Assembly (NCBI GenBank): GCA_947561395.2
Contig: OX387190.1
Coordinates: 25,910,858-25,974,857 of the forward strand
Origin: Buxus sempervirens
Taxonomy: Eukaryota; Streptophyta; Magnoliopsida; Buxales; Buxaceae
Direction: 5' to 3'
DNA length: 64,000 nt
Shown piece after piece: positions 11,837 to 40,505 of the stretch. The position numbers and the translations under genes were made by a program. Below the pieces are notes generated by a model. The model made no database searches. It saw only the letters and a program-made list of their open reading frames with translations, and was not told the origin of the DNA. Position 1 is the first letter of the stretch. Each line of letters begins with the position of its first letter.

Positions 11837-11933
11837 CGAAGGATGATATTTTTCACCTTTTCTTCTAGAGAAAACCGATAATGGTGCAGATTTTTGTTTC
11901 TCAGTAACCCTTAATTATCGATATCTATACTAT

Positions 11934-14311: not shown

Positions 14312-14401
14312 TGTAGACACCCCAAATTGCACAAACAATCATCAAAAATCATTATCTCCCGGAAAGCCAGCACAGAATTTGAAGAAAATAAATTTTTGCC
14401 T

Positions 14402-14544
14402 GTATCCGAATACTCAATCCGGATACAAGTACCCTTTCCCGTATCCGGATAGTCATACCGGATACGTGTGAGCCTTAGCGTATCCGGTACCATGTACCGG
14501 ATACCTTAAGGCCCTTTGTTATCCGGTCTGATATACCGGATACC
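14402..14544. promoter_or_regulatory. Four palindromes at exact 39-bp period in U3
   Basis: TATCC starts at 14403, 14442, 14481 and 14520, exactly 39 bases apart. Each opens a palindrome of about 25 bases of the form GTATCCGGT-n-ACCGGATAC, with about 14 unrelated bases between units. The array sits about 155 bases upstream of the TATA box. Such spacing suggests a row of dimeric factor sites or another phased structure. The function is unknown. In the 3' LTR the first palindrome has lost 13 bases. Confidence 0.85.
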
Positions 14545-14698
14545 TTAAGTTTGCTCAAAATTAGGGTTTTCCGAGAGCTTTTCACTTTTACCATCATGTC
14601 CCTCATTAAATGAGGGGAAATCGCGGAAATAACCTTAGGGTTTAGGTTGGAAGGGTTCTAGACATTAAGTTGTGTCTACCAATGACCTTAGCCCTTGC

Positions 14699-14709
14699 CT
14701 ATAAATAGG
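14699..14709 (+). promoter_or_regulatory. TATA box of the 5' LTR
   Basis: CTATAAATAGG is a near-perfect plant TATA box, and the equivalent is kept in the 3' LTR (about 34830) and in weaker form in the solo LTR (about 9776). Transcription should begin some 30 bases downstream, around 14730, close to a short reading frame that opens with ATG at 14728. Confidence 0.75.
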
Positions 14710-14811
14710 AGCATCCTCCTTGAGCAAATGAGACACAACTCTTGTTTTGAATTCTCGCAAAGAAGAACTCCAAGAGAAGAAGAAAACCGCTGTGGAATCG
14801 CCTCCAGCACT

Positions 14812-14820
14812 CAGGTAAGC
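14812..14820 (+). promoter_or_regulatory. Splice donor in the LTR leader
   Basis: CAG/GTAAGC, with the exon ending at 14814, is an excellent plant donor about 110 bases after the TATA box. It is kept at the same place in the 3' LTR and in the diverged solo LTR (9894/9895). A matching acceptor, TTATTTGCAG, ends at 19519, 35 bases before the first gag ATG. Splicing would remove a 4.7-kb leader including the primer-binding site and tandem repeats, giving a short gag-pol mRNA beside the unspliced genome. This is inference from sites alone. Confidence 0.5.
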
Positions 14821-16588
14821 CTCAACTTTTCTTTTATTTTCTGTCTTTACATTCCTAGATCTAGATCTCTTCTTCTACCTTTCTGTAGTGTAAAGCCTTG
14901 TTTGTATGTGTGGAAATCCTTCCCCGGCTCAAAGTATCTCAAGACTCCCCTAGCCGTAAAACGTGAAGGCGGATTTAGGAGAAACGAGACTGGGGATTGA
15001 CCCTAGTGCTAGAACCTATGTAGCATAAGGCCTTTTTGATTGATTGTAAACCGTTCCATATTCAAAGTACCCTTGATTATCTTAAAGAGAACAGAGAGAA
15101 ACGATAATGGAACGAAACCCTAGGCTATGCTAGAACCTATTTTATTGAATCTATATGCATGTGTATGGATCTTGCTAGGTTTTTTTTCACTTTTGCACAC
15201 ATATCACTATTTTGGCGGGATAGGCTCATATTTGGGGTTTATTGCATTTATTGTGATAAATCTCAAATAAATGGCCTCAATCAATTCTGGAATGCCTTTC
15301 GGATGATTTTGAAGTATTTGTGTTCATCTTATACGAATTTCATTTTTATCAATTTTCGGATTTGGTTTTTACTCAAAAATGGCTTAACTTGACAGCACCT
15401 GTACCCTTACTTCGGACGTCCGTAACTTCATCATCCGGATGAATTTTGGGACGATTTCAGAACCATGGGAAAGGTGAGGCTGTCTAGTTTATGCCCACCA
15501 AATTTCATAAATTTCTATCTAGCCGATTTTTGACACTTCTCTGTCGAAGTTAAGTGGACAGTTCAGGTCCAAGTACAGAACTTGTCACTTCGACGGACCG
15601 CCATGTGTTCGTTTTAAGTCCGATTCGAGTGATTTTTGTTTCTGAGTACTCCTTTATGAGTCTATTTTCAAATCCAGTTGGTTTCATAATTTTTGGATTC
15701 CATTTGAATTATTGGTAGCCGATTTACTCAGAACTGCTCATTTGCATTTTTCTGGGTAAATCTGTGATCTTCGGGGCCTGTTCGGGAGACCACCCAAGGC
15801 ACGTCCGAAGGGATTTTTGTATGAGGCTAGTTTCTCTGGAAAGATGGCCATACAGACTTCCATCACACCAAATTTCACAGATTTCTATGTAGTGGATTTT
15901 TCTAGACAATTTTCCAAAGTTGCCCACTTACCACTTTTAAAAATCCCCAGCAGCAACTTCAAAGGAGCATAACTCCTAGATTTTTCACCGGAATGAAGTG
16001 AAATTTTGCATGAAACTCTTATTTACCTTAATCTTTCAAATAGAGTTGGTTTGAATCAATTTGAAATTGGATTTGAATAATTTCAAGACAAAGGATCTTA
16101 CTTTTTACCAAAATTCCCGGATTTGCCTCAACTTGGTTTTTGCCACTTTTGCTTTGATTTCCATCTTTTGAGATATTCCAGAAGTGATATTGACATAAAA
16201 TATGATCTAAAATCCATTTAGATCTTCATATGAAAATATCATACATTGTTCCTTTTTCAAGGCTTTTTCATGATTTTTAGCAAGCTTCTTATTTTCTTTT
16301 TAGCATGAACATACACTTGGCAACCACTTCGTGTGGATGAATGGGGGTGCCTAACACCTTCCCCCGTTCATAATCTAATCCCCTTACCCATCTCTGGACT
16401 TGATTTTCAAGTAGGGTTATTTTTATCCTAGAATTTGTCTTTTGGCTATTTTTGCCTACTTTTGAAATCTTTGGTGTCCATTCTCACCCCAAAATCATGA
16501 ATGGTGGCGACTCTCCCAATTTTTGCGTTGAGCCCGTGTGTTGACGGAGGGACGATCACTCCGGTGATTTTTTCCCATGTCTCACAAC

Positions 16589-16606
16589 TGGCGATTCTGC
16601 TGGGGA
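16589..16606 (+). other. Primer-binding site
   Basis: TGGCGATTCTGCTGGGGA begins two bases after the LTR end. Its position and its TGG start fit pairing with the 3' CCA end of a tRNA. Ogre-type elements are known for a tRNA-Arg-type primer and this sequence looks of that kind, but the tRNA identity is not checked. Confidence 0.75.
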
Positions 16607-18447
16607 CTTGTGGATTTAAGCCATTTTGTGTATATTCATGCTTTTTCTTCACTTTTGAATGCTTGCTATTTTGTTTACTTTATTGGTGTATATTGGTGTA
16701 TTCTAAATCTGATTGGGATACTTTTAAATTTTACATTGATGAAGGCATGTGTGTATGCTTGGATATGCTAAGGATCATGTTTAGGGCCTTACTTTGTTGT
16801 GCATGCCTACTTGTTTTTGTTTGCCTTGTGTTAGGAGGTTCTTAGTGCTATTATTTGAGCATGAAAACATTGAGCAAAAAATGGTAAATTCAGTTGCCAT
16901 CATATGAGTTTTCAAGCATGTTTTTACCATCAAAACTCTCCTTATACCAAGTCAAGTAATTGGTAAATGTTTGGGCATTAATTTGGGGTATAAGTGATGC
17001 ACTTTTGAGCATGAGAAATCTGAAAATTTTAGCGCATATTTCTGGAGATTTTAAGCATGTTTTACCTCATTGAAACACTTTGGTATCATGTCAAGTAGTG
17101 CTAAAATTTTAGGCTCCAATTTGGGGTAGAAATGGTACACTTTGAGCATGAAAAAGAGCATGAAATCTGGGATTTTAGGGAATGCTTTTGAGTTTCAAGC
17201 ATGCTTACATGATTTAATGGTTGTTTGTACAAATGACATGTTTTGTATAACACTTTTTGGGCATGTAATATTTTTTGTGCATATTTAGTTGTTTTGGTGC
17301 TTGCTTGCTTGTATTTGGCTTCATTATTTTGTCATATATGCCTTGGCTTGAAATTGAATGCATGGCTACGAAAAAGAGTGGCAAGGGGCTGGGACGTTGT
17401 GAATGTTACCACAATTTTAAATTGCACTTGAGCACTTGAAACAATTTGCACAGCCTACCCTTTACCTATTAGGAAGTTGAACCATGAATGTGTGTAACTT
17501 GGCGCACCGAGGTCGTGACTTCGGAAAGCGAAAGTGAAAACATTTACCTTAGAATTTGGGTCAATGATGTGATGACAATGGGATCTGTGATTCGATTCCG
17601 GGCATCACTAGACTTGAGTTCTAAGTTGCCAATTAAGCCAAAACCCAAAAAACCATACGCTTGAAGGTGGAGAAACACGTTTTCAGCTAAAAGCACACAA
17701 TTGCGTTTGGGGAATTGGGTGTAAATGTGGGAAGGCCGTTTGCATGTTTTACAGGCCAAGGTATAATGTGAATATCATATGGAATGAAGGTAATACAAGG
17801 TGGCAAGGTAAAGCCATGTTCTTTTCCTAAGTTTAGGGAATTTTGCAAGTATGATGTCCAAGCCCAATTTGGGGCAAGTTTTGAAGGTCAAATTAAGGTG
17901 AACATCAATTGGGAATGAAAAAAAACTAATCTGGTGAAAAAATGAGTCAAAAAAGGCCATTTCGGCAATAACCGACAACTCAGGCCGGTTAATAACAGCT
18001 CTAATCGTATCCGGTACATATTTCCGGATACAAAGACATATGCGGATATCCGGTTAGGTTGACCGGATACAGTAAGGCATATTCTTATCCGGAATAGTAT
18101 ACCGGATACATTCAAAAAATGCACAAATTGGCTTTTCAGCCCAAATTTTCAAAATAAAATGCCTAAAACACTGTGGATAATCCTTAGGCACCCCGAAAAG
18201 AACATAAGAAATGTTCCCAAAAATACAAAATCAAAAAAAAAAAAGAGAAAAAAATACAAAAGGAAAAAAACAAAAAAAAGAATAAAATAAAATATTCTTT
18301 CAGGGTTTAACCTAAGTCTGAAACTCAAAAAGGAAACCAAGGTGTCATTTTTTTTTGACACCAACTCAACTCAAACATGTGTCAATCAAACTCTGGAACT
18401 TGAAAACTGAGAAAATTCAGCAAATTTGAAGAAGAAAAAAAAAACCT
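16607..18447 (+). other. Long non-coding 5' leader with about 150-bp repeats
   Basis: No gene is supported in this part. Units of about 150 bases starting near 16859, 17006 and 17145 share GAGCATGA, TTTCAAGCATGTTTTACC, AAGTCAAGTA and AATTTGGGGTA in the same order and are diverged tandem copies. Short frames such as 16501-16845 and 17243-17431 are hydrophobic chance frames. The long leader is typical of Tat/Ogre elements, some of which have an extra frame here. I see no such frame in this copy. Confidence 0.55.
17968..18112. promoter_or_regulatory. Four palindromes at 39-bp period in the 5' leader
   Basis: Units start at 17969, 18008, 18047 and 18086, again exactly 39 bases apart. The first is a variant (TAACCGACA...GGCCGGTTA). 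The other three are TATCCGG...CCGGATAC types. The array is far from the LTR TATA box and no antisense gene adjoins it, so it may be a remnant of a lost antisense unit or part of the leader structure. Confidence 0.75.
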
Positions 18448-19325
18448 TTGGTTGGTTATTTTTATCAATCAAATCAAAAAAAAATGAAAACCTTGGTTGG
18501 TTATTTTTATCAATCAAATCAAAAAAAGTGGGACACTTGGAAGCCCTAGAATATTCCATGAAAACCTTGGTTGGTTATTTTTATCAATCAAATCAAATAA
18601 AAAAAATGAAAACCTTTGGTTGGTTATTTTTATCAATCAAATCAAAAAAAGTGGGACACTTGGAAGCCCTAGAATATTCCAAGACACCTTTGATTGGTTA
18701 TTTTTATCAATCAAATCAAAACATTTGTGGGATACTTGGATAGAATATTCCAAGACACCTTTGGTTGGTTATTTTTATCAATCAAATCAAAACATTTGTG
18801 GGATACTTGGAAGCCCTAGAATATTCCAAGACACCTTTGGTTGGTTATTTTTATCAATCAAATCAAAACATTTGTGGGATACTTGGATAGAATATTCCAA
18901 GACACCTTTGGTTGGTTATTTTTATCAATCAAATCAAAACATTTGTGGGATACTTGGATAGAATATTCTAAGACACCTTTGGTTGGTTATTTTTATCAAT
19001 CAAATCAAAACATTTGTGGGATACTTGGAAGCCCTAGAATATTCCAAGACACCTTTGGTTGGTTATTTTTATCAATCAGATCAAAATAAAAAAAAAAAGT
19101 GGGACACTTGGAAGCCCTAGAATATTCCATGAAACCTTTGGTTGGTTATTTTTATCAATCAAATCAAAACATTTTTGGGACCCTTGGAAGATTCCATGAA
19201 AACCTTGGTTGGTTATTTTTATCAATCAAATAAAAAAAAAATGAAAACCTTGGTTGGTTATTTTTATCAATCAAATCAAAAAAAAAATTTATGGGACCCT
19301 TGGAAGCCCTAGAATATTCCAACAC
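18446..19325 (+). repeat. Minisatellite in the 5' leader, about 13 copies
   Basis: The core TTGGTTGGTTATTTTTATC followed by AATCAAATCAAA occurs about 13 times (near 18448, 18492, 18567, 18617, 18688, 18761, 18836, 18906, 18977, 19054, 19136, 19205, 19249). Full units are about 70-80 bases and include GGGATACTTGG, an optional AAGCCCTAG, AATATTCCA and AGACACC. Shorter units lack parts. The open frames across this region are products of the repeat and are not genes. Tandem repeats in untranslated parts of Ogre-like elements are known seeds of satellite DNA. Confidence 0.9.
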
Positions 19326-19554
19326 AAAATCAAAACAACAAAAAAAAAAAAACAAAAAAAAACAAAAAAACAAAAAATCAAAAAAATCTGGATTGGTGTT
19401 CACCTAACCTACTGGTTTACATATATAGGGGTGTGACTCAAGTTAAATGGAAGCTAACATGTTCTATTCATTTTTTACTCAGGTACATTTACTTTCGACC
19501 TAGGTGCACTTATTTGCAGTCATTGCTCCCGTGACCAGATCCAAAGCAAGAGCC

Positions 19555-21783
19555 ATGAATACTGAGGAGAACCAAGCCCAAGCTACCGTCCCAGCTCAGG
19601 ACTTTACTCAGCTGCAGGAGCAAGTGGCCGGTCTGGCCAAAATGCTGGGAGACTTACTGGCGGCTCAAGCCCAGCAGGCCCAAGCCCAAAATCAGACGTC
19701 GACTTCTCATCCGGCACCGCCACCTCAGGCCTATATTCCGCCTCCAGCTCAGCCCATGCCTGAGCCCATTTCTGAACCAGTCCCTGAGCCCATTCTGATC
19801 AGGGAAAATACAGTAGAGTCTGAGAAAGAGCTGGAAAAAGAAAAGGCCCGAGATGAGATGGAAAAGAAAATGCTGCTGAGGATAGAAAGAATCCAGGCAG
19901 AGCTGAAAGAGGTGAAGGGGGGAGGCAGCCATGCAGGCACCACCTTCGAGGACCTGTGCATGTACCCGGACGTCTGTCTACCGGCTAAGTTCAGGTGCCC
20001 GGATTTTGACAAGTTTGATGGCACGGGCTGCCCATTAAGCCATCTGAAACTATACTGCGGGGCCCTGTGCCAGTTTGGCCGGGACGATGGAATACTGATC
20101 CAGCTCTTCCAGAGGAGTCTGACCGGGTCAGCCCTTCGGTGGTTCGCTACAGTGGACCATGGAAGGATTAGAAGGTGGAAGGACTTGGCTGATGCTTTCT
20201 TGGACCAGTACAAGTTCAACTCTGAGATCATGCCGGACCGGTACGACATGATGAGGATGACCAAGGGGAAGGATAAACCGGTATGGCAGTACGCCAAGAG
20301 ATGGAGAGAGGCCGCCTCCCAGGTCAGGCCACCTATGCAAGAGCCGGAGATGATCTCCACATTTATGGGCACACTAGGGCAGCCATTTTACAACCATCTG
20401 GTCGGTCAGATAACCACCAACTTTGCAGCCCTGGTGCAGGTGGCTAACCGGATTGAAGAAGGGGTCAGGTCAGGACGGCTGATAGACTACTCTACTCTGA
20501 CTGGGCAGTCTGATTCCTCTGCCTCCATGGCCCAGAAGAAAGGGGCCGGGTTTAAAAAGACGGGGGCCCGAAAAGAAGGGGAGGTGAACCTGGTCCAGGC
20601 TCCTCCAGCTAAGAAGCCACTTCACGTCAACATCTCGGCACCCCAACAGGCCCAGCAGGCCCAGCAGTCGTACCAGACCCCGCTGAATGTCAACTTCTCT
20701 CCCTCTGTGCCAGCTAACACAAGGAGGACCTTTACTAAGGAGGAGCGGGATGCCTGGTTCGCAGCAAGGAAGAACCGGGTTTTCACCCCTCTACCAATAT
20801 CTCTTTCCCAACCATTGCCAATCCTGCTAAAAGGTGAATACTTGACTCTGAAGGAGCCTAACCCAAATGCCCCGAAGGGGAGAAATTTTGACACATCGGT
20901 CACCTGTGATCTCCACATGGGTGCACCGGGGCATTCTACCGATACCTGCTGGGTATTGAAGCATGCGGTCCAGGACCTGTTGGACCAGAAGGCCTTAGTG
21001 TTTAACACTGCTGCACCCGCCCCGTCCGGGAATGATATTGGGCAGAACCCTCTGCCCTACCACAATGGGGCAGGCCCATCCAACTCCATCACTGCCATAT
21101 CCACCACCAGAAGGGCCTTTGACCCATCTCAGCTTATAGCTCCTGTGGGGACTACAGTCCAGGTCCGATTCTTCCCAGAGGAGGACGAAGAGGAGATCAA
21201 CATGGTCTCCCAAGAAAATAATCTTGCTGCTGAGGACATAAGCTCCTCCTTAAACCGGGTCTCTTCTCTGATGGCCCAGATAAATACTGCAAGGCCCCCA
21301 TTGGTCTTCAATTGCAGTCCACCCACTTGTTCCCCATCCAAGCCGTCTAAGGCTCCACTGGTCATCAATCTTGACCCCACCACTGCTTCCATCACTTCTT
21401 CTGTCCCCACAAATTCCAAACTTCAACCCTTGGTTGTAAATGTGCAGCCAGCCCATGCTATCCCTAAACCGGCCCATACATCCCGGTCCAGACTCCAGCC
21501 ATTAGTGGTTAACATCCCTAAACTAGCCTATTCTGAGGCCGCTGTACCATGGAATTACAGCGAGGGAATCACGGCTACGGTTCCAATGGTCAAGGACCAG
21601 AACCAGGAGGAGGTGAACCTCATGACGAGGTCAGGGAGATGTGCAGAGGGTGAAGAGAAAGAAAAAGAGACAGAAGTAGAGAAAGAGAAAAAAGAAAATG
21701 AAGAAAAAAGAAAACAGAAAGGAAAAAATAAAGTGGGAGAAGACACCCCCAGGGTGCAGAAAATGAGGCAGCAGACCTCATAA
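19555..21783 (+). CDS. gag: Gag polyprotein
   Basis: The structural protein packages the RNA. The frame is open from 19504, but 19555 is the first ATG. The N-terminus has a glutamine-rich coiled-coil-like stretch and a proline run. The middle (about codons 165-305 of the open frame) is a Retrotrans_gag domain, with GSALRWFATV, WKDLADAFLDQY and WQYAKRWREAA blocks. A knuckle-like C-X3-H-X5-GH-X4-C motif starts at 20905. The tail is lysine/glutamate-rich. It stops at TAA 21781-21783. The protease continues in another frame, entered between 21732 and 21781, so expression needs a frameshift or this copy carries an indel. Confidence 0.88.
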   Translation: MNTEENQAQATVPAQDFTQLQEQVAGLAKMLGDLLAAQAQQAQAQNQTSTSHPAPPPQAYIPPPAQPMPEPISEPVPEPILIRENTVESEKELEKEKARDEMEKKMLLRIERIQAELKEVKGGGSHAGTTFEDLCMYPDVCLPAKFRCPDFDKFDGTGCPLSHLKLYCGALCQFGRDDGILIQLFQRSLTGSALRWFATVDHGRIRRWKDLADAFLDQYKFNSEIMPDRYDMMRMTKGKDKPVWQYAKRWREAASQVRPPMQEPEMISTFMGTLGQPFYNHLVGQITTNFAALVQVANRIEEGVRSGRLIDYSTLTGQSDSSASMAQKKGAGFKKTGARKEGEVNLVQAPPAKKPLHVNISAPQQAQQAQQSYQTPLNVNFSPSVPANTRRTFTKEERDAWFAARKNRVFTPLPISLSQPLPILLKGEYLTLKEPNPNAPKGRNFDTSVTCDLHMGAPGHSTDTCWVLKHAVQDLLDQKALVFNTAAPAPSGNDIGQNPLPYHNGAGPSNSITAISTTRRAFDPSQLIAPVGTTVQVRFFPEEDEEEINMVSQENNLAAEDISSSLNRVSSLMAQINTARPPLVFNCSPPTCSPSKPSKAPLVINLDPTTASITSSVPTNSKLQPLVVNVQPAHAIPKPAHTSRSRLQPLVVNIPKLAYSEAAVPWNYSEGITATVPMVKDQNQEEVNLMTRSGRCAEGEEKEKETEVEKEKKENEEKRKQKGKNKVGEDTPRVQKMRQQTS

Positions 21784-22577: not shown

Positions 22578-23257
22578 TGGAGAAATACCACTTTCACCCA
22601 GGGAAAGGCCTGGGGATCAATCTGCAGGGGATGGTGGAGCCAATCACGGCTAAGAAACTGATCCCCAAGGTAGGGTTGGGCTTCAAGCCCAGAGGCTGGA
22701 GAAGAATAAAGCACGAAGAAGGGGAGAGCAGAAGCAAAGGAAAACTCCCGCATCTGAGGGTGAACTTCCCAAAACCCGCTTATATAATCCAAATTTCTCC
22801 TCCTATGGACCAATCAAAACCTCCCTACTACAATGTCAACCCATTTCAAAAGCCTCCTGTTTCGGCCCTCCAACCCTATAACCCTTCTCCAATACTGGGA
22901 GCAGCAGATGGGCCTGGACCACAGCCCGAGCAGCAGGTGGACTTTTCTGAGGATGTTGGTGCATTCTTCGCCATGACTGAAGGCGAAAAGACAGGGGCAG
23001 ACATGGAACTGCCGTTTATTGACTGGGCCGCAGTAAAGGTTCCAGACAAGGTCATTTCTGAATTGGGCCCCGTAGCAGAAAAGGGCAGTACCCACCCGGT
23101 GATGATGGCATCAGATGCTGGGCTTGAGGAGCAGGCTTTCCCTATTTCCCCTACTCCCCAAAATTTTGTACTGAACAATTGGGAGGAAACTCCCCTTACC
23201 TTTGAAGCAGCGTTAGTTCGGCAAACTGACGCGGCTTCCAAAAAAAAACTCCAATAG
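22523..23257 (+). CDS. G-patch-like and linker segment of the polyprotein
   Basis: In the third frame the protease is followed by KVMEKYHFHPGKGLG, a G-patch-like glycine motif found between protease and RT in Tat-type elements, and then a long acidic linker with no recognised fold. The frame ends at TAG 23255-23257 just after an eight-A run. The RT frame begins within bases. In Ogre elements an intron is known between protease and RT. I could not identify a convincing donor-acceptor pair here, so either splicing or a frame change is needed. Confidence 0.7.
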   Translation, partial: CEKKKEKGTTAEKMVKKVMEKYHFHPGKGLGINLQGMVEPITAKKLIPKVGLGFKPRGWRRIKHEEGESRSKGKLPHLRVNFPKPAYIIQISPPMDQSKPPYYNVNPFQKPPVSALQPYNPSPILGAADGPGPQPEQQVDFSEDVGAFFAMTEGEKTGADMELPFIDWAAVKVPDKVISELGPVAEKGSTHPVMMASDAGLEEQAFPISPTPQNFVLNNWEETPLTFEAALVRQTDAASKKKLQ

Positions 23258-26200
23258 TGGAATTCCATTTCCCTGAAGGTTCTAATGGGCCTTCGTCTTC
23301 AGGGGAATTATGTTTAGAAGGCCCACAAAAAACCCAAAAAGATTTTTCTATTTTTTCTAGAAAATTTAATTTTTTCAAAAAGGTCCAAACCACTTATGAA
23401 CCATATAATCAGACCGAATTGGACCAGGTTGAATATGACTTCGACCTTGAGCTCGACTTTGATCTCATGGGGGTCGAAGAAGAGACCGAGGTCGAAGAAG
23501 AAGACGTTCCAAAAGAAATTGAATACCAATTGGAACGTCATGAAAAGGGGGTCCAACCTAATATTGAGGAGACCATATCCATAAATCTTGGGACCAAGGA
23601 AGACCCAAAAATTGTGAAAATCGGGTCATGCTTGTCTGATGTGCAGAAAAATGAAATGTCACAGTTCTTGGCAGACTACAAAGATGTGTTCGCTTGGTCA
23701 TATCGGGACATGCCGGGGTTGGACACTGACATGGTGGTGCACAAGTTGCCAATTTTGCCAGGGGTTAAGCCGATTAAGCAGAAGCTGAGAAGATTGAAAC
23801 CTGAATGGACCTTGAAGGTCAAGGACGAAGTGGTCAAACAGTTCCAAGCTGGATTTTTGGCAGTCTCTACGTACCCGGAGTGGCTCGCAAACATAGTGCC
23901 AGTACCAAAGAAGGACGGAAAGGTCCGAATGTGCGTGGATTATAGAGACTTGAACAGGGCAAGCCCAAAGGACGATTTTCCGCTTCCACACATCGACATT
24001 CTGGTCGATAATACTGCGGTACATAGCCTGTTTTCCTTCATGGATGGTTTCTCAGGATATAATCAGATCAAGATGGCTAAGGAAGATCAAGAGAAAACAG
24101 CATTTATCACACCTTGGGGCACATTCCACTACACAGTCATGCCATTTGGGCTTAAGAACGCTGGGGCAACATACCAGCGGGCCATGACTGCACTATTCCA
24201 TGACATGATCCACAAGGAGATGGAGGTCTACGTGGACGATATGATTGCCAAATCATGCAAAGAGGAGGACCACTTGATCAATCTGAAGAAAGTGTTTGAT
24301 CGTCTCAGGAAGTACAGTTTACGGCTTAACCCGGCTAAATGCGTCTTTGGGGCTACATCAGGGAAGTTACTGGGGTTTATAGTGAGCCGAAGAGGAATTG
24401 AAATTGACCCGGCTAAAGCCAAGGCCATAATTGAAATGCCAGCACCCAGAACCGAGAAGGAGGTCAGGGGCTTTCTTGGAAGAATTCAGTACATAAGCCG
24501 GTTCATAGCACAGCTCACTGCTATCTGTGAACCAATTTTCAAACTTTTGAGAAAATATAACCCGACGGTCTGGAATGAGGACTGCCAACAGGCATTTAAT
24601 ACAATAAAGAGGTATTTACTGAACCCGCCGGTACTAGTGCCACCAACTCCAGGAAGACCTCTGATCCTATACTTGTCAGTGTTGGAAACGTCGATGGGAT
24701 GTGTCTTGGGGCAACATGATGAGACTGGTAGAAAAGAAAGGGCAATTTACTATCTGAGTAAAAAATTCACAGAATATGAAGCCAAATACTCACCATTGGA
24801 GAAGACTTGCTGTGCTCTAGTGTGGGCCACTCAGAGGCTAAGGCATTATTTCCTTAGTCACTCCACGCTATTGATATCCCGGATGGACCCTCTGAAATAT
24901 TTATTTGAGAAACCAGCACTGACTGGCAGGACGGCAAAGTGGCAACTGCTACTGTCCGAGTTTGACCTCACATACATCACCCAGAAGGCGATCAAGGGTC
25001 AAGCCATAGCTGATCACCTGGCTGCACATCCTCTGCCAGAATATCAACCCTTGAAGACCAACTTTCCTGATGAGGCAATTCTGTACACTGAAGAGGAGGA
25101 CAGTGAGAGTTCTTGGCAGATGTTCTTTGATGGGGCCGCCAATATGAATGGGAACGGAATAGGGGCAGTCTTGGTTAAACCAGATGGTTCACATATCCCA
25201 ATTGCAGTAAAACTGAGATTCCAGTGCACCAATAACATAGCAGAATATGAGGCATGCATAATTGGATTGCAAGCAGCCATGGATCATGGAGTAGAGGAAC
25301 TTGACGTATACGGGGATTCGAGTCTTATCATCTTCCAAACAACTGGTGAGTGGAAAACCAAGGATCACAAATTGATCCCCTATCACCAGTATTTGGAAGA
25401 AATAAGTACAAATTTCACTCGAATTTCCTTCAACTATATGCCAAGGGCCAAGAATCAGTTTGCGGATGCTCTAGCAACCTTGGCTTCAATGGTCAGCATA
25501 TCAGAAGGAGTAGACATCAGACCACTGGAAATTGAGGTCCGAGATGAACCGGCTTACTGTCTCGTTCTAGAGGGAGCACCAGAAGAAGCAGCACCATGGT
25601 TTCAGGATATCAAGAACTTTTTGAATAATCGGAGTTTGCCGGAAAATGCCACTGCTACTGAGAAGAGGACAATACAGAGATTGGCTGGTCAATTTCTGCT
25701 AAGTGGTGGACATGTGTACAAGAGGTCACATAATGACATTCTGCTAAGATGTGTTGCCAAGGCTGAATCGGAAAGGCTGATTGAGACTGTACATGGAGGA
25801 GTCTGTGGGCCCCATATGAGTGGGCACATGCTGGCTAAGAAGATCCTGAGGCTGGGATACTACTGGACGACCATGGAGCATGATTGCTGTATACATGTCA
25901 GGAGGTGCCATCAATGCCAGATATATGCAGATAACAAGCATGCACCCCCAGGCGAGCTGCACAACATGACATCACCCTGGCCCTTCTCTATGTGGGGCAT
26001 AGATGTTATTGGCATGATCTCACCTAAGGCATCGAACGGGCACAGATTCATCCTGGTGGCAATTGATTACTTCACTAAATGGGTGGAAGCAGCATCATAT
26101 GCAAATATCACAAGCAACCATGTTATTAAATTTTTGAAGCACAATATCATTTGTCGCTATGGGCTGCCAAGTGCCATAGTATCTGACAATGCTTCAAATA

Positions 26201-26844
26201 TTAAGAACAAGGACATGAAGAAAATGTGTGAGCAGTTTCAGATCACCCACCACAAGTCAGCTCCGTATAGGCCAAAGATGAATGGGGCAGTAGAAGCAGC
26301 CAACAAGAATATAAAGAAAATCATTCAGAAGATGGTAGTGAGCTACAAGGATTGGCATGAAATGCTGCCACTTGCTCTACATGCCTACAGAACCTCGATC
26401 CGGACTTCAACTGGGGCAACCCCGTACTCCCTAGTCTATGGAATGGAAGCAGTCTTGCCAGTGGAAGTAGAAATCCCATCACTCCGAGTGCTCATGGAAG
26501 CAGAACTAGAAGAAGCCGAATGGGTCCAGTCGAGACATGATCAACTTAACCTGATAGAAGAAAAGCGGTTGAAAGCGCTTTGCCATGGACAGTTGTACCA
26601 GAAGAGAATGGCCCGGGCTTACAATAAGAAAGTGAGGCCCAGAACTTTCCAAGAAGGAAACTTGGTGTTAAAGAAAATTCTACCATTTCTGGAAGATCCT
26701 CGTGGTAAGTTCAAGCCCAATTGGGAAGGCCCATATGTCATCAAGAAAGTACTGTCAGGGGGTGCACTCATCTTAGCAGAAATGGATGGGTCAGATTTTC
26801 CTGAGCCCATTAACTCTGATGCAGTAAAAAGGTATTTTCCTTGA
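23257..26844 (+). CDS. pol: Pol: RT, RNase H, second RNase H, integrase (intact)
   Basis: An unbroken 1195-codon frame that should be read as a continuation (it has no upstream ATG). RT starts near codon 171 and has CVDYRDLN, FMDGFSGYNQI, MPFGLKNA and the catalytic YVDD at codons 325-328. The usual LTR-type RNase H spans about 469-570 (GQHDETGRKERAIYYLSKKF). A second RNase H keeps the full acidic tetrad at D625, E663, D687 and D737. The integrase has an HHCC finger (H846 to C884/C887) and catalytic D916, D977, E1013 with 35 residues between the last two. There is no chromodomain and it ends KRYFP. The paired RNase H domains mark the Tat/Ogre lineage, and all catalytic residues are present. 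Confidence 0.95.
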   Translation: MEFHFPEGSNGPSSSGELCLEGPQKTQKDFSIFSRKFNFFKKVQTTYEPYNQTELDQVEYDFDLELDFDLMGVEEETEVEEEDVPKEIEYQLERHEKGVQPNIEETISINLGTKEDPKIVKIGSCLSDVQKNEMSQFLADYKDVFAWSYRDMPGLDTDMVVHKLPILPGVKPIKQKLRRLKPEWTLKVKDEVVKQFQAGFLAVSTYPEWLANIVPVPKKDGKVRMCVDYRDLNRASPKDDFPLPHIDILVDNTAVHSLFSFMDGFSGYNQIKMAKEDQEKTAFITPWGTFHYTVMPFGLKNAGATYQRAMTALFHDMIHKEMEVYVDDMIAKSCKEEDHLINLKKVFDRLRKYSLRLNPAKCVFGATSGKLLGFIVSRRGIEIDPAKAKAIIEMPAPRTEKEVRGFLGRIQYISRFIAQLTAICEPIFKLLRKYNPTVWNEDCQQAFNTIKRYLLNPPVLVPPTPGRPLILYLSVLETSMGCVLGQHDETGRKERAIYYLSKKFTEYEAKYSPLEKTCCALVWATQRLRHYFLSHSTLLISRMDPLKYLFEKPALTGRTAKWQLLLSEFDLTYITQKAIKGQAIADHLAAHPLPEYQPLKTNFPDEAILYTEEEDSESSWQMFFDGAANMNGNGIGAVLVKPDGSHIPIAVKLRFQCTNNIAEYEACIIGLQAAMDHGVEELDVYGDSSLIIFQTTGEWKTKDHKLIPYHQYLEEISTNFTRISFNYMPRAKNQFADALATLASMVSISEGVDIRPLEIEVRDEPAYCLVLEGAPEEAAPWFQDIKNFLNNRSLPENATATEKRTIQRLAGQFLLSGGHVYKRSHNDILLRCVAKAESERLIETVHGGVCGPHMSGHMLAKKILRLGYYWTTMEHDCCIHVRRCHQCQIYADNKHAPPGELHNMTSPWPFSMWGIDVIGMISPKASNGHRFILVAIDYFTKWVEAASYANITSNHVIKFLKHNIICRYGLPSAIVSDNASNIKNKDMKKMCEQFQITHHKSAPYRPKMNGAVEAANKNIKKIIQKMVVSYKDWHEMLPLALHAYRTSIRTSTGATPYSLVYGMEAVLPVEVEIPSLRVLMEAELEEAEWVQSRHDQLNLIEEKRLKALCHGQLYQKRMARAYNKKVRPRTFQEGNLVLKKILPFLEDPRGKFKPNWEGPYVIKKVLSGGALILAEMDGSDFPEPINSDAVKRYFP

Positions 26845-27579
26845 GTGAATATTTCTAGGAAATGATCCGAGGCCATTTTTCTTTACTTCCTTCAAAATTT
26901 CAATCCCTAGTCTAGCCAAGTTGAGCCGGTTCGTTTCTTTGATCAACCCAAACCGGATTTACAGTCTTAAATTTGGGCAAAACAAATTAGGGCAAAGTAA
27001 GGAAAGAAAAAGAAAAAGAGAGGAAAAGCAATGGAAATGGCAAATGAAAGCCAAGTGTGAAAAAAGATGCAAAAAAAATGCAATTTGGGGAAAAATGGTT
27101 AAATTTATCATGACTGTAAATCCGGTTGACCTATTTCCACACTTGAAAATTTTTGGGCCTTTAATACCCTTTCTTTCATAAACTGAGCCTAGCCTTTATT
27201 TCGTCCTATTTTTAAGCCCTCGGTGATCTTAGCTTGTTCATTCAAATATCAGAGTAAGATGGGTGATGACGGAACTCAGAAGCCGGCCCTAGTGAAAACC
27301 GTAACTGGCGCTAGGGGCAATATTGGCAAAAAGGCAAAAAAGGAAAAAAATAAATAAGAAAAAATGAAAGAAAATCAGAGGTTGAGTTGATCATGGGGAT
27401 CTGAGCCTTAAGCAAAGTTGGCATGAGCAGAATGAAGCCGTTTTGGCAGTTGGGGATGACTCTAAAGGTCCTAAGATGGACGGTTCTGATCCCTCAGTAT
27501 TTTCTGGACTACCCTTTTCATTATTTAACCTGGTTCTAATTCCTTTAATTATAGGTGATTAAGTGCATGGACCAAATTT

Positions 27580-27615
<36 letters not shown>

Positions 27616-27798
27616 GAAAAATTATACTTTGGCCAGTGATGAGAAATCAAATACTTTTCATAAAACCTTTGTTTTTACAAGCATCTGAGCATTCTGAGGC
27701 CAATAATATAAAAACTTTATTTTGAATTAAAACCTTTGTATTTCCACTACTGGAGTTCAATTTTGTACAAAGGTATGAAAAATGTGCAGGAAATAAAG
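26845..27798. other. Spacer between pol and the first antisense gene
   Basis: No gene is supported. Pol ends at 26844 and the first antisense gene ends at 27799, so the two are tail to tail across about 950 bases, where both transcripts must end. An (AT)n tract lies at about 27583-27611. The short frame 26921-27181 is lysine-rich and has no known domain. Confidence 0.5.
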
Positions 27799-29505
27799 CT
27801 AATCCCTATCTCCTAGCCGCTCCTCAAGCTCCCGAATCCGAGCTGCCTGAGCTGCAATGACTCCTGAAGCCCCCTCTGCAGCGGGATCACTCAAGAAGGA
27901 AATGACCTCATCTGAAAGGGCCTGCCTGATCCACATACTCCTAAGGCTGGCCAAAGTATCCTGGTACTTCTGCCGGATCATACGGACCTCAAAGCGACGG
28001 GCCTGCCTCTGCTCATCCAGCTTCTCTTCCACGGCAATACGGCGTGAGATCTGCTCCTCAAGCTGCCTCTCCAGATAAGCGCCCTGTATCCTGAGCTCCT
28101 GGGCCTCCCTTACCCATATCTGCTGAAGCCGCTTATGAGAAGCCCGCTCAGACTCTAGAATGTCCTCATAGGTGGGAGCCAAGACTACAGGAGGATCTTC
28201 GGGTACCGGGGCCTGAGTCTGTATCTGCTCCTTGATCCAGAAGAGATAATCCTTCACATGGGCTTCTGAGAAGACTGGACCATGCATGAAGCGGACATAG
28301 GACCACTCCTTCATCAACCAGGCATTCAGCTTCATAGAAAGGGGCCCAAGACGATCCTCATATCCACATGGGATGATAATCCCCTGGGTCGCACGGAACT
28401 GACGAAGGACCCGCAGAGGAAGATACAACACTGCATGCTTCAGGCCCGCTAGGATCAGAAAGTTGCGGTCACGGAAACTAATCACTGTCTCTGCATTAGG
28501 CTGATAAGTGCCAGGCCATCTCACCTGGTCATCCTGAAGCGAGCCCAAGAAAGTGAACCAGCCCTGTTTGCCCCCTGGAATATCGGGGCACCCCCTGTTG
28601 CTCATCAAGAGAGGGACTTTCAGACTCGGGAAGAAGTGTCGATTGATCTCTTCAATCTGGCTCAAATGATCAAGTAGCCAAAGCTGCAAAGAAAGAGAGA
28701 GGTGTCAGCACATTGTATAAAAAAAAAAAAAAAAAAAGCAAGAAAGGCAAAAAAAGAAAGCCAAAAAGCAAGAAAAAAAGAAAAAAAAACTTTTTACCTG
28801 CAGGATCTGGGCACATGCTAGGAAGCGTTTCGACTTCCTATTGTAGCAGTCGGTTAAGGCCTGATATATCCCAGCTAAAATCATGGGGGCCAACCTCTCC
28901 CGCTCCCTAACCTGGCATATCACAGAAATCAAGGCCAAGTCCACCTCATCATCATCCCGTGGGAAAAGCAACTGGTTGACCACTATCAGGGTCAACGCAT
29001 TGAATCGGGCCTCCTTATCTTCTCCCCTCAAAAGCTTCTCAGTCAAAAAAGCCTTAGATAGGGTCAAAAGGGTGTCAGAATCCCCCAAGTCCTTCTTCCC
29101 TATGCCCAAAAAAGTAGAAGCTTCCTTCTTGTAACTGGGCCTAAGAGGTGGATTCACCACCTTCTCATCAAACCTCAGGCCCAGGATGGTTTCCACCTCC
29201 TCAATGGTTGGGGTCATCTCATGGTTCCCAAAACGGAACAAGTTGAGATCAGGAACCCAGTGACCAATCATGGCCTCTATAATCTCCCACCTGAAGGGAA
29301 CCTTGGGAATGAGCAGGGTATGGCCTAGGTTGGTAGTACCCCATCTCCTTTCCTCATCTAGGGTCATAGAGTTAACCCACCTTGTGTAAAAGGAATCCAC
29401 AGGGTTGTACCTAGTGAGATTTGGGGGTTTTGATCTAAAAGGCTGTTTTGCAGGGGAGGCAGTGTGGACAGACAATAATGGGGCAGAAGATGATCCGGAT
29501 TCCAT
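27799..29505 (-). CDS. Antisense gene 1: DUF7745 / plant-mobile-like protein, two coding exons
   Basis: Exon 1 is 29505-28798 and exon 2 28683-27799. The donor CTGCAG/GTAAAA and acceptor TTTGCAG/CTTTGG flank a 114-base intron with long T runs. The junction is phase 0 and gives QILQ-LWLL. The protein is 530 residues. The N-terminal half has FRFGNHEMTPTIEEVETILG, the hallmark of the DUF7745/plant-mobile-like family. The C-terminal part (from about residue 404) is a charged coiled coil with EARQ/LEERL heptads. ATG 29505 was preferred to 29598 because it follows a TATA box at 29614-29624 and opens MESGSSS. Function is unknown. Extra antisense frames are known in some Tat-lineage elements. Confidence 0.8.
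28684..28797 (-). other. Intron of antisense gene 1
   Basis: On the minus strand it starts GTAAAAAG and ends CTTTGCAG, with almost continuous T runs between. It separates two coding parts that join in frame. Its base composition is sharply unlike the GC-richer exons on both sides, as expected for a plant intron. Confidence 0.8.
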
Positions 29506-29613
29506 TGGATTTGACTGGAGCAAGCTAGAACTCAAGAGGAGGAAGAAAAAGGCGAAAAAGGGGTTTTCTAAACTCAAAAACTCGTAAAAAATGCTCAAAT
29601 CCCGAGGCAGGTT

Positions 29614-29624
29614 GCATTTATAGC
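29614..29624 (-). promoter_or_regulatory. TATA box of antisense gene 1
   Basis: Minus strand GCTATAAATGC lies about 110 bases before ATG 29505 and about 12 bases after the palindrome array at 29635-29776. The order array, TATA, coding start copies the order in the LTR, which suggests a related promoter facing the other way. Confidence 0.65.
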
Positions 29625-29634
29625 ATCTTTTAAC

Positions 29635-29776
29635 ATATCCGGTAACTCAGACCGGATACAAAGGCTTTGGTAATATCCGGATAAGTATACCGGATACAAA
29701 GGATTCCATGAATATCCGGTATGACATACCGGATACAAAGACCAATCAATGTATCCGGTATGTCAGACCGGATACC
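29635..29776. promoter_or_regulatory. Four palindromes at 38-39-bp period upstream of antisense gene 1
   Basis: TATCC starts at 29636, 29674, 29713 and 29752 (spacings 38, 39 and 39). Each unit is an ATCCGGT...ACCGGATAC palindrome of about 25 bases, the same motif and spacing as in the LTR. The array is directly upstream of the antisense TATA box. Confidence 0.85.
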
Positions 29777-29997
29777 GAGAAAAATGCAAAAAAAGAGAGC
29801 TAAGGATGAAAAAATCCGAATTTTTTACCTGTTTTACCTGCTTACATGTCATAATTGCATAAAATTGAGAACAAAAGATGTGCAAGACATGATAGAATGA
29901 ATAAAAAGTTTTTTTATATATATCTGGAAGTTGTGTACAGGGATGATGATATAAATACATGAAAATGAAAAAAATCCTAATCTACTCCTATGCAGGA

Positions 29998-32649
29998 TCA
30001 TCCCCCGCGTCCTCGGCCGCGTCCACCTCTACGGCCTCGCCCCCAAAGTGCTCGGCCTCTAGAGTAGGCAAGGATCCGCTCGGCTGCATGGTGAGGATGC
30101 CGACCTACCACCTGCTGAAGATGATACTCCAAGCAATAATCCTCGAGATCTGGGGGAGGAGCAAGAGTAGAATCTGGGGAAGAAGCCTTGGGCTCAGCAG
30201 CAACCGGCCCAACTGGGTCCTCATCCAAAGCATCCTCTGCTCCCGCAGCTCCAGAAGGCCCAGCATCAGCAGCAGAGGGGCCGGGACCAGAAGTAGCTGA
30301 GTCCACAGAAAAGAGAAAAATCAGAAGACTCAAATATAAGGAAGAATAAAAGAGGAGAATTAAAAGAAGATCATACCAGGAATGTCTGCAAAAGGAGCAG
30401 GAGGATCCGGCTCGTCAAGACCAGCCGCTGGGGCATCCTCGGGATCAGCAGCCCGAGCCGGAGATGGGTCAGGAATCAGGAAATCATGCTCAAAGAAGGC
30501 GTCCTGATCATGGACCGGGCCCTGCACAAGTCAAACAAGCATATCAGAATAGCAGAAATAGGAAAATGAAAGAAAAGAAAATATAAGAAGACCAGATACC
30601 TGTCTAGCCTGGAGCTCAGAAACTAAGGCCTCCAGCTCCCTGATCCGGGCATCCCGCTGGGCCACGACCGCATCGTGCTCCGCGATCATATCATCGATCG
30701 CAGCCCGCTGGCTCTCGAACCGGTCCCTGATGGTGTTCAGCTCGTGTACCTGTCAACAAAAACAGAAGAGGATCAGAAATGCATACAGAAAGGCAGATAA
30801 AAACAGGAAGAGTACAAGACTTACAGTGTCCTCATGGATCTGGATACGAATCCTGCCGATCTCAGTCACCCCGGCACGAGTGGGTCGATCCATCAAGCAT
30901 CCGATAGACACCCTCTGGAACCACTCGTCGTAATCTCCGGCTACTGTGAGCCCCTCTGCATCCAGGAAATGATCGAACTGATCTACATCAAAACCTGGGA
31001 GGAGTGTGTCTGGACCCACAGGAGGAGGAGGGACGGGGATGCGAAGTGCGCTGGTGTGCTGGAAGTACAGGCGCTCTCCTAAGTACATCACCCTACCAAG
31101 CCTCCCGAGGAAGCACTGGTAGGGCTGACGTCGTAGATCTCTATCGAAGGCGTCCTGTACCGCCATCTCACGAGCCACCCCAACATCCACGTCATCAAAT
31201 CGGGACAGAAGGAGCTGCAAAAAAGGGAAACTGTCAGGTACAGTCCAAATACAGGGAAGGAAAAGGAAAAGATAAAAGGCTTACATCAGATCGGCGGGCA
31301 CGGTCTAAGTGCACCCGGGCAGTGCGAGGCTGGTTCCTATCAGCATCTCGAACCTGGGCCGACCATCGCAGGGCCACAGGGAAATCTGCAACCTCAGGAA
31401 CCGGAGAGGGGCGGAAGAAGGTCATATAGGTGTACATGAACACCTGGCAAAAGAAAAATCAGTCAAGAAAAGATAAAGCCTAATGAATTAAACCAGACAG
31501 ATGAATGCAATACCTGTAGAATCTGCCAGAAGAACCGGCTGCTAACTCCATCACCTCTCGGGGATGCCAGACCTCGAACTGCACGGCACAACCCGGCCAA
31601 GATGGTCCCATAAATGAGCCGACCCCATGCCAGCTGACTGGTCTGGCGGAGATCTCTCAAGGCATCCAAGAAAAGGGGGCTGACGCCGGTCGTATCCTCC
31701 GGGAAGAAGCAGCTCCCCAACATCAGCAAGAATACGTGCCGGAAGATAGGAACAAAAGCAGCATCATCCACAGCCACAGTCCTGTGTCTCCCCTCGAAAT
31801 GTCGAGCCAGACTCTCCCGCAGCCAGCTAATGGAGAGCCGGCCGCTCCGCCCATCCCAAGCAGTAGGTGGCAGGGCCTGATACCCCAGAAGGAGGCCAAT
31901 ATCCTCCGCAGAGGGTCGCTCCAAGATGATGGTCCGCCCCGTCAACGGAATACCAGTAATCATCACAAAATCGGAGGGGCGGATCCCCAGCTCCACGTCC
32001 GGCAAATGAAACGACTGCGTCTCGGGGAAATATCTCTCCATCATGGCAAAAATAAGCGGACGGTCGGCTCTGAAGGATGGGATGCTAAGAAAATGATCCA
32101 GGTGGCACCTCCCAAACTCCCGCCTGAGTGCTGGAGAAAGCGACTGAGCTAGATCACTAAATCTGCCCCAGCTACCTCGTAAGTGGGAGGAATGATAGGG
32201 AAGCGGCACATCTGCCTTGATGCACATAGAAGGGTGGCTATCCAAGCCATGGAGGAGCTCTGTATCATGCACAGAGGCCCTCAACTCCTCAGAAACCCCG
32301 GCAAGGGCTACAGCAACCCCCTCCGGAGCCGTATCTCTGGCTCTGCCTCGACCTCTACCACGGCCTCTCTCGCCCTCAGGGGCCTGATCCTGAACCCGGC
32401 CTCTGCCTCGGCCTCGACCACGAGCGGGTGCAACCACGGGCTGAATCGCAAAGGAACAAGGTGAAGATTTGTGTAGAAAGAAGAAAGAAAGAAAAATTTT
32501 TGAAAGCCTACCTCAGCAGAGCTCTCTCTGGAGTCACCTAATGGCTCAGACAAGGTGGCGCTGGAGCTCGCCTCTGTCCGAGCTCGAGAACTGGAGGGCT
32601 GATCAGCTGGGTCAACCTCCTCTCTAACTCGAGAACGACTCCTAGCCAT
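29998..32649 (-). CDS. Antisense gene 2: plant mobile domain protein, seven coding exons
   Basis: Exons: 32649-32512, 32440-31514, 31443-31285, 31214-30825, 30749-30600, 30521-30377 and 30296-29998. All six introns are GT-AG, and the joins keep one frame (phase 0 five times, phase 1 at the last), giving 735 residues. Exon 2 starts with GR repeats and then a plant mobile domain (FPETQSFHLPDVELGIRPSD, FVMITGIPLTGR). Exon 4 continues the domain, exon 5 is a coiled coil (RIRELEALVSELQARQ), exon 6 is acidic and proline-rich, and exon 7 ends in an RGG-like tail (GRGRRGGRGRGRGG). Plant mobile domains occur in host proteins of the MAIL1/MAIN type linked to silencing, and in transposons. A role here in regulating silencing or silencing escape is inference only. 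Confidence 0.85.
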
Positions 32650-33435
32650 CTACACAGGGAAGTGTTTTATGAATTTCAGTTTAAATTTATGAAATTTTGC
32701 TTTGCTTATAGTTCACGTTCAGTTTTACATGATTTTTCCAGGTCATCGTGAATCGTGTCCCGAGGTTATTTGGTATTTCTGTCCAATTAACAAGATATTC
32801 TATTGCTAAGGCACTTCCAAGTGTTGTCCTAAGATATTTCTGTAAAGTTTAATATTTTCTTAATTTGCTTTCAGGATTACCAGACGTAATCAGAAAAACA
32901 ATGTGCAGAGCAAAGTCCATTCAAGAACAAGTCATGGAGGCACCGCCTCTATTGGAAAAGTGTTAAAGTGAAAAGTCCAAGCAGGTTGAAAAAAAAAAAA
33001 AAGAACAGCATGGCATTTGCGATCCAAGGGTAGTCAGAGGCATTCATTATCAGCAGTGCAAAACCAATCAATGGACATAACCAATTGAAGAGACAGGGCA
33101 AAATTCAAATACAAATTCCTACCATGAACAATTCAATTGGGAATTGGTATGAGAACAAAAATATAGCAAGACTTACAGCAAATGAGGAATTAAAGTTTGT
33201 TCCAACAGGCAATCAGGAAACAAGCAGTATGCAATCAGAAAATTGTCAAACATGGTCAATCTCAATTCATATAGCAATTCAGTTCAAACAGGAATCATTC
33301 AGAAATTGCCAATTGATGGGTAATCCAAAGTTCTCCACTGCTAAGACAGAAATATGCAAAATTCGTCCAAGCCACAACCAAGTTGCTACCAATGTGCAAT
33401 CGGTCCACCATAAAAAAAATTTTTTTTCTGCTTAC
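32650..33435 (-). other. Probable 5'-UTR intron of antisense gene 2
   Basis: On the minus strand CTATTG/GTAAGC at 33436/33435 is a strong donor, and CTGTGTAG at 32651-32650 is an acceptor whose AG is directly followed by the ATG at 32649. The sequence between is AT-rich and non-coding, and the sequence upstream of the donor is GC-richer and leader-like. This would link the gene to the palindrome pair at 33798-33863. Inferred from sites only. Confidence 0.5.
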
Positions 33436-33797
33436 CAATAGTGCCGAACAGGGGATTGCAATGTTGGAGGAAGGATCGGCCGGAAGCAGGAAGGATGCTT
33501 GGGATGCCGAAAATCGAAGAGGACCCCCGAAGCCTGGGCAATGGCGACTGACAGTCGTTTGAAAAAAAAAAACCAGAAAAATACCGAACTAGGGCTCGGT
33601 TGCGGCAATGTGTGAAGGTCGCCGGAGTTGCAGACAGTCGCCGGCAACAATGAAAGGCGCCGGAGCTACCGGAAATGGCTGGAGAGGAAGGAGCAATCGT
33701 CGGGTGAAGGAGAAGAGGAAGATAACCGGTCTGAGTTATCGGAGAAAGAAGAAAAGAAATGAAAAGTCGCGGTCGCGCGCGACTTAAGTAAACCTGC

Positions 33798-33863
33798 GGG
33801 ATCCGGATACTCAGGCCGGATACCCGCAGACCCTTGATTATCCGGATACATTTACCGGATACC
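33798..33863. promoter_or_regulatory. Two palindromes at 39-bp period upstream of antisense gene 2
   Basis: The units start at 33800 (GATCCGG...CCGGATAC) and 33839 (TATCCGG...ACCGGATAC), again 39 bases apart. They lie upstream of the proposed leader of antisense gene 2 on the minus strand. A convincing TATA box is not visible beside them. Confidence 0.65.
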
Positions 33864-40224: not shown

Positions 40225-40505
40225 GTGCACAACAACCACAACCAATTTCCTCATCCATCTCCACTATCATCACTACTACAACCACCACCACCATCACTAA
40301 CATCTCCTCCTCCACCACCAACTCCCCAACCTAACATCATCACCACCATCATTAACTCTACCACCACAATCACAAGCACAACCACAATCACAACCACCTC
40401 CTTGTCCAGCCCCACTACAACCACCACCACCATTACTGTGACTATCATCACCACCATTACCATCACCTCCACCGCTATCACCACCAACACCTCTTCCACC
40501 ATTCA
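40225..40505. repeat. CCA/ATC trinucleotide microsatellite, left part
   Basis: Nearly pure ACC/ATC triplets on the plus strand, with open frames in several phases and both directions that are products of the repeat. The tract continues at 42737-42846 and again at 43438-43490. The three parts are one array split by two insertions. Confidence 0.9.

Follow-up and report, generated by a model that had tools for sequence, protein, structure and literature searches.

The palindrome arrays described here lie in a 64,000-nucleotide stretch of the Buxus sempervirens genome (contig OX387190.1, positions 25,910,858 to 25,974,857 of the forward strand; hereafter the window), most of them within a long Ty3/gypsy retrotransposon, and their closest described counterparts are found in Sireviruses and in VANDAL21, a member of the VANDAL group of DNA transposons. 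In Sireviruses many palindromes, mostly with a CGG-CCG core, lie upstream of the TATA box of the long terminal repeat (LTR) and are repeated upstream of an extra gene, and the motif varies among elements (RM; Bousios 2010, PMC2829016). The carriers are Ty1/copia elements and the extra gene is ENV; in the passages of that paper on RM the motifs are mostly shorter than ours and no fixed period is described. VANDAL21 has non-coding motif arrays beside its own genes, targets that diverge between related elements and turnover of tandem repeats, and its 9-base motif, present in one orientation, is bound by the protein VANC21 (relevant sections of Hosaka 2017, PMC5735166). A further likeness concerns the extra genes. 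Ty3/gypsy elements of the Tat type carry extra open reading frames (ORFs) with a plant mobile domain (PMD), which is reported in the extra ORF of 57% of Ogre elements (Neumann 2019, PMC6317226, in the parts on extra ORFs), and Retand has antisense TRP28 ORFs between pol and the 3'LTR, with tandem repeats in the same region (Vicient 2025, PMC11963269, corresponding passages). A term search of the two main texts found 'palindrom' in PMC11963269 only within a cited title and in PMC6317226 nowhere, and we found no description of palindrome arrays for PMD-bearing Ty3 elements in the open-access literature, which was covered mostly as listings and passages.

The arrays in the window keep a nearly strict step of 39 bases and a near-constant length while their letters change; arrays 1 and 3 stand beside TATA-like boxes, and the half-sites are specific to element families. 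In our view the arrays are putative regulatory sites at the level of DNA, which would be bound by a dimeric protein whose neighbouring dimers touch (a probability of about 0.7). As in Sirevirus RM, the LTR has a cluster of CGG-CCG palindromes ahead of its TATA box, and arrays 3 and 4 lie upstream of extra genes between pol and the 3'LTR, but the carrier is not a Ty1/copia Sirevirus: reverse transcriptase (RT) and RNase H precede integrase, which is the Ty3/gypsy order. Like the VANDAL motif arrays, ours are non-coding and diverge between related elements, but the protein family is another one, and whereas binding by VANC21 has been demonstrated, protein binding to the arrays reported here is putative. 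In a general Pfam scan, without a dedicated VANC model, two of the three antisense frames matched only PMD or DUF7745 and the third matched nothing. By analogy the arrays would work like the Sirevirus palindromes and the VANC-bound VANDAL arrays; they belong to neither system, because neither a Ty1/copia carrier nor a VANC protein was found. The Ogre trait is present as a PF10536 match in one frame of each antisense gene, and the Tat-clade trait as a second RNase H domain, recognized by the Pfam model RVT_3, that stands after the first and before integrase (pol frame positions 448-578 for RNase H, 633-751 for RVT_3 and 918-1015 for integrase).

Palindrome arrays in the window

The element carries the four arrays that the initial annotation had reported, whose start coordinates were right and whose palindrome centres were confirmed, and a fifth in its 3'LTR that had been missed (Table 1). 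Each unit consists of an 8-base arm, a 7-base middle and a mirrored arm, mostly TATCCGGT-N7-ACCGGATA, with a spacer of about 16 bases before the next; many units extend the symmetry by one or two further mirrored bases. In the 14 units of arrays 1-4, between 6 and 8 of the 8 arm positions are matched. The 3'LTR array has lost the left arm of its first unit to a 13-base deletion and has two changes in the right arm of its last. When the arrays of the two other LTR families in the window are included and the 3'LTR copy is left uncounted, 14 of the 15 intervals measure 39 bases and the remaining one, from 29647 to 29685, measures 38, which bears out the annotated period of 39 within one base. The spacers also differ as had been claimed: their identity is 38, 33 and 46% within arrays 1, 2 and 3 (50 and 48% in the LTR B and C families), and they are no simple duplicates. 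Plain tandem duplication with similar spacers was therefore rejected for arrays 1-3, with 33-46% identity; one recent duplication was seen in another copy, L001.

Table 1. Positions, strands and remarks for the features described in the window
Feature	Positions	Strand	Remarks
5'LTR (aligned extent)	14312..16587	+	98.77% identity to 34456-36719 across 2277 columns
Array 1, four palindromes, 5'LTR	14403..14543	+	Centres 14414/14453/14492/14531; upstream of LTR TATA box
LTR TATA box TATAAATAGG	14700..14709	+	About 157 bases after array 1; putative function
Array 2, four palindromes, leader	17969..18109	+	Centres 17980/18019/18058/18097; between 5'LTR and gag
gag open frame (PF03732)	19504..21783	+	Pfam match
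pol open frame	23230..26844	+	RT, RNase H, RVT_3 (second RNase H-like), integrase, in that order (Pfam)
Antisense gene 1, likely two exons	27799..29505	-	Start codon 29505; predicted exon structure and start
Antisense gene 1 TATA box TATAAATG	29616..29622	-	13 bases from nearest array 3 palindrome; putative function
Array 3, four palindromes	29636..29775	-	Centres 29647/29685/29724/29763, steps 38, 39, 39; upstream of antisense gene 1
Antisense gene 2, encodes a PMD protein	31463..32649	-	Start codon 32649; predicted start and intron
Array 4, two palindromes	33800..33862	-	Centres 33811/33850; upstream of antisense gene 2
3'LTR (aligned extent)	34456..36719	+	LTR-LTR alignment
3'LTR copy of array 1	34545..34674	+	Centres 34584/34623/34662 and half-deleted unit at 34545; partly decayed
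LTR B array, three units	9511..9611	+	Half-site TATCCGAT and variants, step 39; centres 9522/9561/9600; LTR start 9408
LTR-like C array, four units	59802..59942	-	TAnCCGAC and variants, step 39; centres 59813/59852/59891/59930; LTR orientation unsettled

A motif-free scan, which sought triples of evenly spaced palindromes whatever their sequence at periods of 15-120, gave 15 starts in the window, ten of them at period 39 and five at 28, 71, 78 and 112; one of the ten (18058) relies on a fifth, motif-less position. None was found at period 39 in 200 block-wise Markov shuffles (mean 0.7 starts over all periods), nor in twelve 10-kb pieces chosen arbitrarily from the genome, which gave 27 starts at other periods, 24 of these from two loci. 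In 1.21 Mb of prokaryotic and viral loci, picked by chance match to one pair (36 viral_contigs stretches and at least 120 genome_contigs stretches), there was no triple at periods 38-40 and there were 17 at other periods. Small-RNA phasing was considered and rejected, 39 being no multiple of 21 or 24.

All five intervals in the LTR B and C arrays are 39, so that the step outlasts the half-site. Downstream of the array, the focal LTR and LTR B share about 70% identity (482/691), the array has the same position in both, and the alignment gap between the four-unit and the three-unit array is exactly 39 bases, from which whole units have apparently been gained and lost. The initial annotation had assigned the arrays to a single element and viewed them as its shared regulatory module. 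Four do lie in one Ty3/gypsy element, and a module is supported by the nearly strict step and by the TATA boxes at arrays 1 and 3, but the claim was too narrow, since other LTR families share the step.

The placement upstream of the LTR promoter and of both antisense genes, also proposed then, holds in part. Array 1 precedes the LTR TATA box at 14700, and array 3 is beside the TATA box at 29622 and about 130 bases from the likely start codon of antisense gene 1. The case is weaker for array 4: antisense gene 2 has its likely start codon about 1.15 kb downstream of it, and a pattern search found no TATA box there; a leader intron would bridge that distance. Array 2 is located in the leader, where there is no obvious promoter, and not ahead of either kind of promoter named.

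Several further observations concern the arrays. The middles of the units centred at 14414, 17980, 29647, 33811, 9600, 59813 and 59930, all of them end units, read AACTCAG/CTGAGTT or a near form; this middle spans all three families and most inner units do not have it. End units with the common middle may have a special role or be older. A weak palindrome with a CTGAGTT middle lies at about 33723-33745, 77 bases from the nearest array 4 unit, and array 4 may once have had four units, one of which has since been lost. At 18136, exactly 39 bases past the last unit of array 2, there is a palindrome of different sequence, with a similar one at 38 in L009; this could be due to chance. The leader also holds tandem repeats of 71 and 76 bases (18441-19326), the unit of which includes another palindrome, CTTGGAA...TTCCAAG. 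The LTR-like insertion that carries array C (58856-61770) interrupts a minus-strand RT gene and has TATA boxes at 60119 (+) and 61074 (-).

The 39-base step across the genome and between copies

The genome counts cover 676 Mb on both strands, on both of which a single pair can match, and the places listed are the first ones on one chromosome and no random sample. The pattern CCGGATAC-N{0,30}-TATCCGG gave 16,406 and 16,663 matches per strand, against 20 and 16 for the reversed pattern. Among 100 matches listed, the gap is 15 in 69 and 28 in 26, both in the 39 register, and five are in the 38 register. With the full palindrome in front, periods of 23-37 occur at only 26 and 23 places in the 676 Mb, and periods of 41-55 at 1768 and 1596. 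Of the latter, 98 of the 100 listed share one length, a gap of 29 = 16+13; the letters of L013 show that the next unit stands at 39 and contains, 13 bases deeper, a second TATCCGG, which gives this gap, and by arithmetic the remaining two fit the same extra-half-site pattern in the 38 and 36 registers. The corresponding TATCCGA pattern, TCGGATAC-N{0,30}-TATCCGA, gave 4,609 and 4,610 matches (reversed 48 and 52); 91 of the 100 listed are exactly 39, one is 40 and one 41, and seven have a short gap of 5 and are of another nature. An asymmetric arm variant, TAACCGG-N9-CCGGATA, matched 297 and 248 times (control 0 and 2). In the extracted loci, 28 of 31 distinct combinations of interval and spacer are 39, two are 38 and one is 77, in a tally that takes 7-base middles only and hence misses a step of 42 in L001. 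Free drift of the period in other copies, which the initial annotation had named as counting against its claim, was looked for and not seen; the exceptions are single ones, the 42 of L001 and a few TATCCGA steps of 64, 77 and 143.

The layout of the arrays is also held between copies. The TATCCGG matches listed for the first 4.54 Mb of C1 form 32 arrays, 25 of which are in five element copies, four in a sixth and three single. The five copies each hold five arrays in the same order, at distances of 3618-3797, 11185-11875, 4049-4475 and 692-1231 (3566, 11667, 4164 and 734 in the focal element). This layout is thus common to five of the six multi-array copies listed; the sixth has four arrays in reverse order and no match listed at the place of array 3. 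Six TATCCGA site starts fall in the same 4.54 Mb, none of them, among the matches listed, inside the five TATCCGG copies. Because some TATCCGA sites fall at similar offsets, in at least two clusters (12294032, then +4291, then +708; and 12095525, then +824), the positions suggest that element families change half-sites in all of their arrays together. Pairs of PMD genes separated by about 3.4 kb occur at several of the places listed, for example G000:C3:45640023 and 45643445; their open frames have about 575 and 590 codons (of 8447 candidates 117 were scored).

Comparison of the focal LTR with L002, made over the array and the sequence downstream of it in a piece without the LTR start, gave identities of 676/707 in the downstream flank, 30/48 in the spacers, 18/28 in the middles and 56/64 in the arms. 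The array has 36 differences and no length change, and the flank 31 differences and three length changes. The respective values are 598/680, 30/48, 20/28 and 60/64 for L001, and 485/489, 43/48, 26/28 and 63/64 for L013, whose flank is partial as the piece began upstream of the LTR. In both of the family's more diverged LTR copies, the spacers and middles vary more than the downstream LTR while the length is nearly kept; the excess of spacer change perhaps arose through exchange of whole units.

Candidate readers of the arrays

Two opposite-strand genes are located between pol and the 3'LTR. The first frame of antisense gene 1 matches PMD (PF10536, E 1.8e-13) and DUF7745 (E 6.3e-18) in Pfam; its second frame has no Pfam match and by eye has the look of a coiled coil. 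Antisense gene 2 matches PF10536 in one frame (E 1.4e-13). Transposase_28 (PF04195) is absent from the Pfam matches of the three antisense frames to which the scan was limited.

If the arrays are DNA-level sites, each palindrome would be bound as a dimer by a sequence-specific protein and neighbouring dimers would be in contact, so that the centre-to-centre distance of 39 would be held while the spacer letters stay free. Such dimers would explain why the arms are family-specific yet largely symmetric and why arrays stand at promoters. The arrays would act as a common switch, with a putative effect and direction, on the element's own promoters, those of the LTR (gag-pol) and of the antisense genes. 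The factor would most likely be one of the antisense PMD proteins or a complex containing one; these lead the list of candidates, since the half-site follows the element family and the genes that the arrays flank include PMD genes. Each element family would carry its own matched half-site, in the manner of the VANC proteins and the VANDAL motif arrays. With a PMD protein as its putative factor, we hold the DNA-level reading tentatively, at somewhat under even odds.

The reader of the same DNA-level array may instead belong to the host, as a transcription factor or chromatin protein, with the element supplying the sites only. GGATA/TATCC and RCCGAC resemble known plant factor sites. We consider a host factor, although tentative in its turn, nearly as likely as a PMD protein, because Sireviruses, which are unrelated Ty1/copia elements, bear clusters of CGG-CCG palindromes both ahead of the TATA box in their LTRs and ahead of ENV (PMC2829016, passages on RM); this points to a host reader that is widespread. 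A single host factor needs neither half-sites that differ among related families nor the lack of a TATCCGA pair in the five TATCCGG copies. Departing further from sites on DNA, the palindromes might form RNA hairpins in element transcripts and serve as a source of small RNAs or as a packaging or stability signal. A full-length sense transcript would include arrays 2, 3 and 4 and the 3'LTR copy, and small RNAs of maize Sireviruses accumulate on LTR palindromes (Bousios 2016, as described in a passage of PMC10760457). All six folds examined beat their shuffles (z -6.1 to -10.3, with 0 of 200 shuffles each), but this score does not discriminate, since stable folding is to be expected of any array of palindromes. 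In the predicted folds arms are partly paired across units instead of giving one hairpin per unit, arrays 1 and 3 are upstream of TATA boxes and outside the transcripts of those two promoters, and hairpins have no need for a fixed 39-base step. We regard them as improbable and as less likely than DNA-level sites.

It also appears quite unlikely that the arrays are a functionless, self-perpetuating repeat, with 39-base units that duplicate, vanish and swap by recombination or template switching in identical arms. Turnover of this kind is consistent with the single gap of exactly 39 bases between the focal LTR and LTR B, with the recent unit duplication with identical spacers in L001, and with the array interior of L002, which is strongly different from the focal one despite downstream flanks that are 96% identical. 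It leaves unexplained, however, the TATA boxes at arrays 1 and 3, the layout common to most of the multi-array copies listed and the largely symmetric arms in families with different half-sites. A fixed step is moreover not automatic, because the palindrome array in another locus, L025, has triples at 40, 42, 43, 45 and 47.

Several points weigh against dimeric sites read by a PMD protein. The TATCCGA counts cover the gap between neighbouring units only and not the 7-base middle, and of 17 within-array TATCCGA steps 12 are 39 and two are 78, with 64, 77 and 143 also seen. Units are not uniform within the element, as the first unit of array 2 has TAACCG arms, and in LTR B conservation is no higher in the arms (34/48) than in the flanks (482/691). 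In the close copies L005 and L010 the spacers do not change faster (45/47 in each, against flanks of 693/707 and 695/707), and the array shows one gap of a single base. In L001 the middle of one unit is 10 bases long, which gives the step of 42; this unit stands beside the recently duplicated one. Helical phasing was rejected: 39 bases is about 3.7 turns and not a whole number, so that no simple same-face model applies. As for the protein, the PMD proteins MAIN and MAIL1 of Arabidopsis are linked to a 'DOWN' promoter motif, direct DNA contact being unproven in the relevant parts of PMC9899485 and PMC7156037, and no PMD gene is mentioned in the passages of PMC2829016 that describe the similar Sirevirus palindromes.

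Neighbouring features and significance

Other palindromes and repeats were noted during the analysis. Palindrome triples with a step of 28 occur at 50526-50610 in the window and at 2933 in L024, where the letters are CCCGTAnTTnAAnTACGGG. The array in L025 (G000:C3:3000001-3010000, at 1205-2120) is built on GTCTnAAA...TTTnAGAC, and a related form with a step of 40 is found in L018 (2744-2850), about 1.2 kb past the leader array of an element copy. At 40505-41422 and 48988-49896 there are two inverted repeat arms, each about 0.9 kb long; they are 86% alike, stand about 7.6 kb apart and probably belong to a terminal-inverted-repeat or fold-back element. A search of solved structures gave 0 and 5 weak matches (E 0.13 or worse), and no relative of the pol query was found in viral_contigs.

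The fullest form of the PMD proposal would make the antisense PMD proteins element-specific regulators that line up in rows, as dimers in contact along a 39-base ruler, switch gag-pol together with the genes that encode them, and have co-evolved with the TATCCGG, TATCCGA and TAnCCGAC half-sites; taken as a whole it is doubtful. Contact between PMD and DNA is left open in the parts of PMC9899485 and PMC7156037 that deal with it. A defined, repeated and family-specific site beside PMD genes offers a direct test of that contact. A 39-base step that some twenty thousand pairs retain while the half-sites change is an unusually clean spacing constraint in transposon regulatory DNA. If the proposal is true, the plant mobile domain would gain a defined DNA target, and retrotransposons would gain a counterpart of VANC-type self-recognition.

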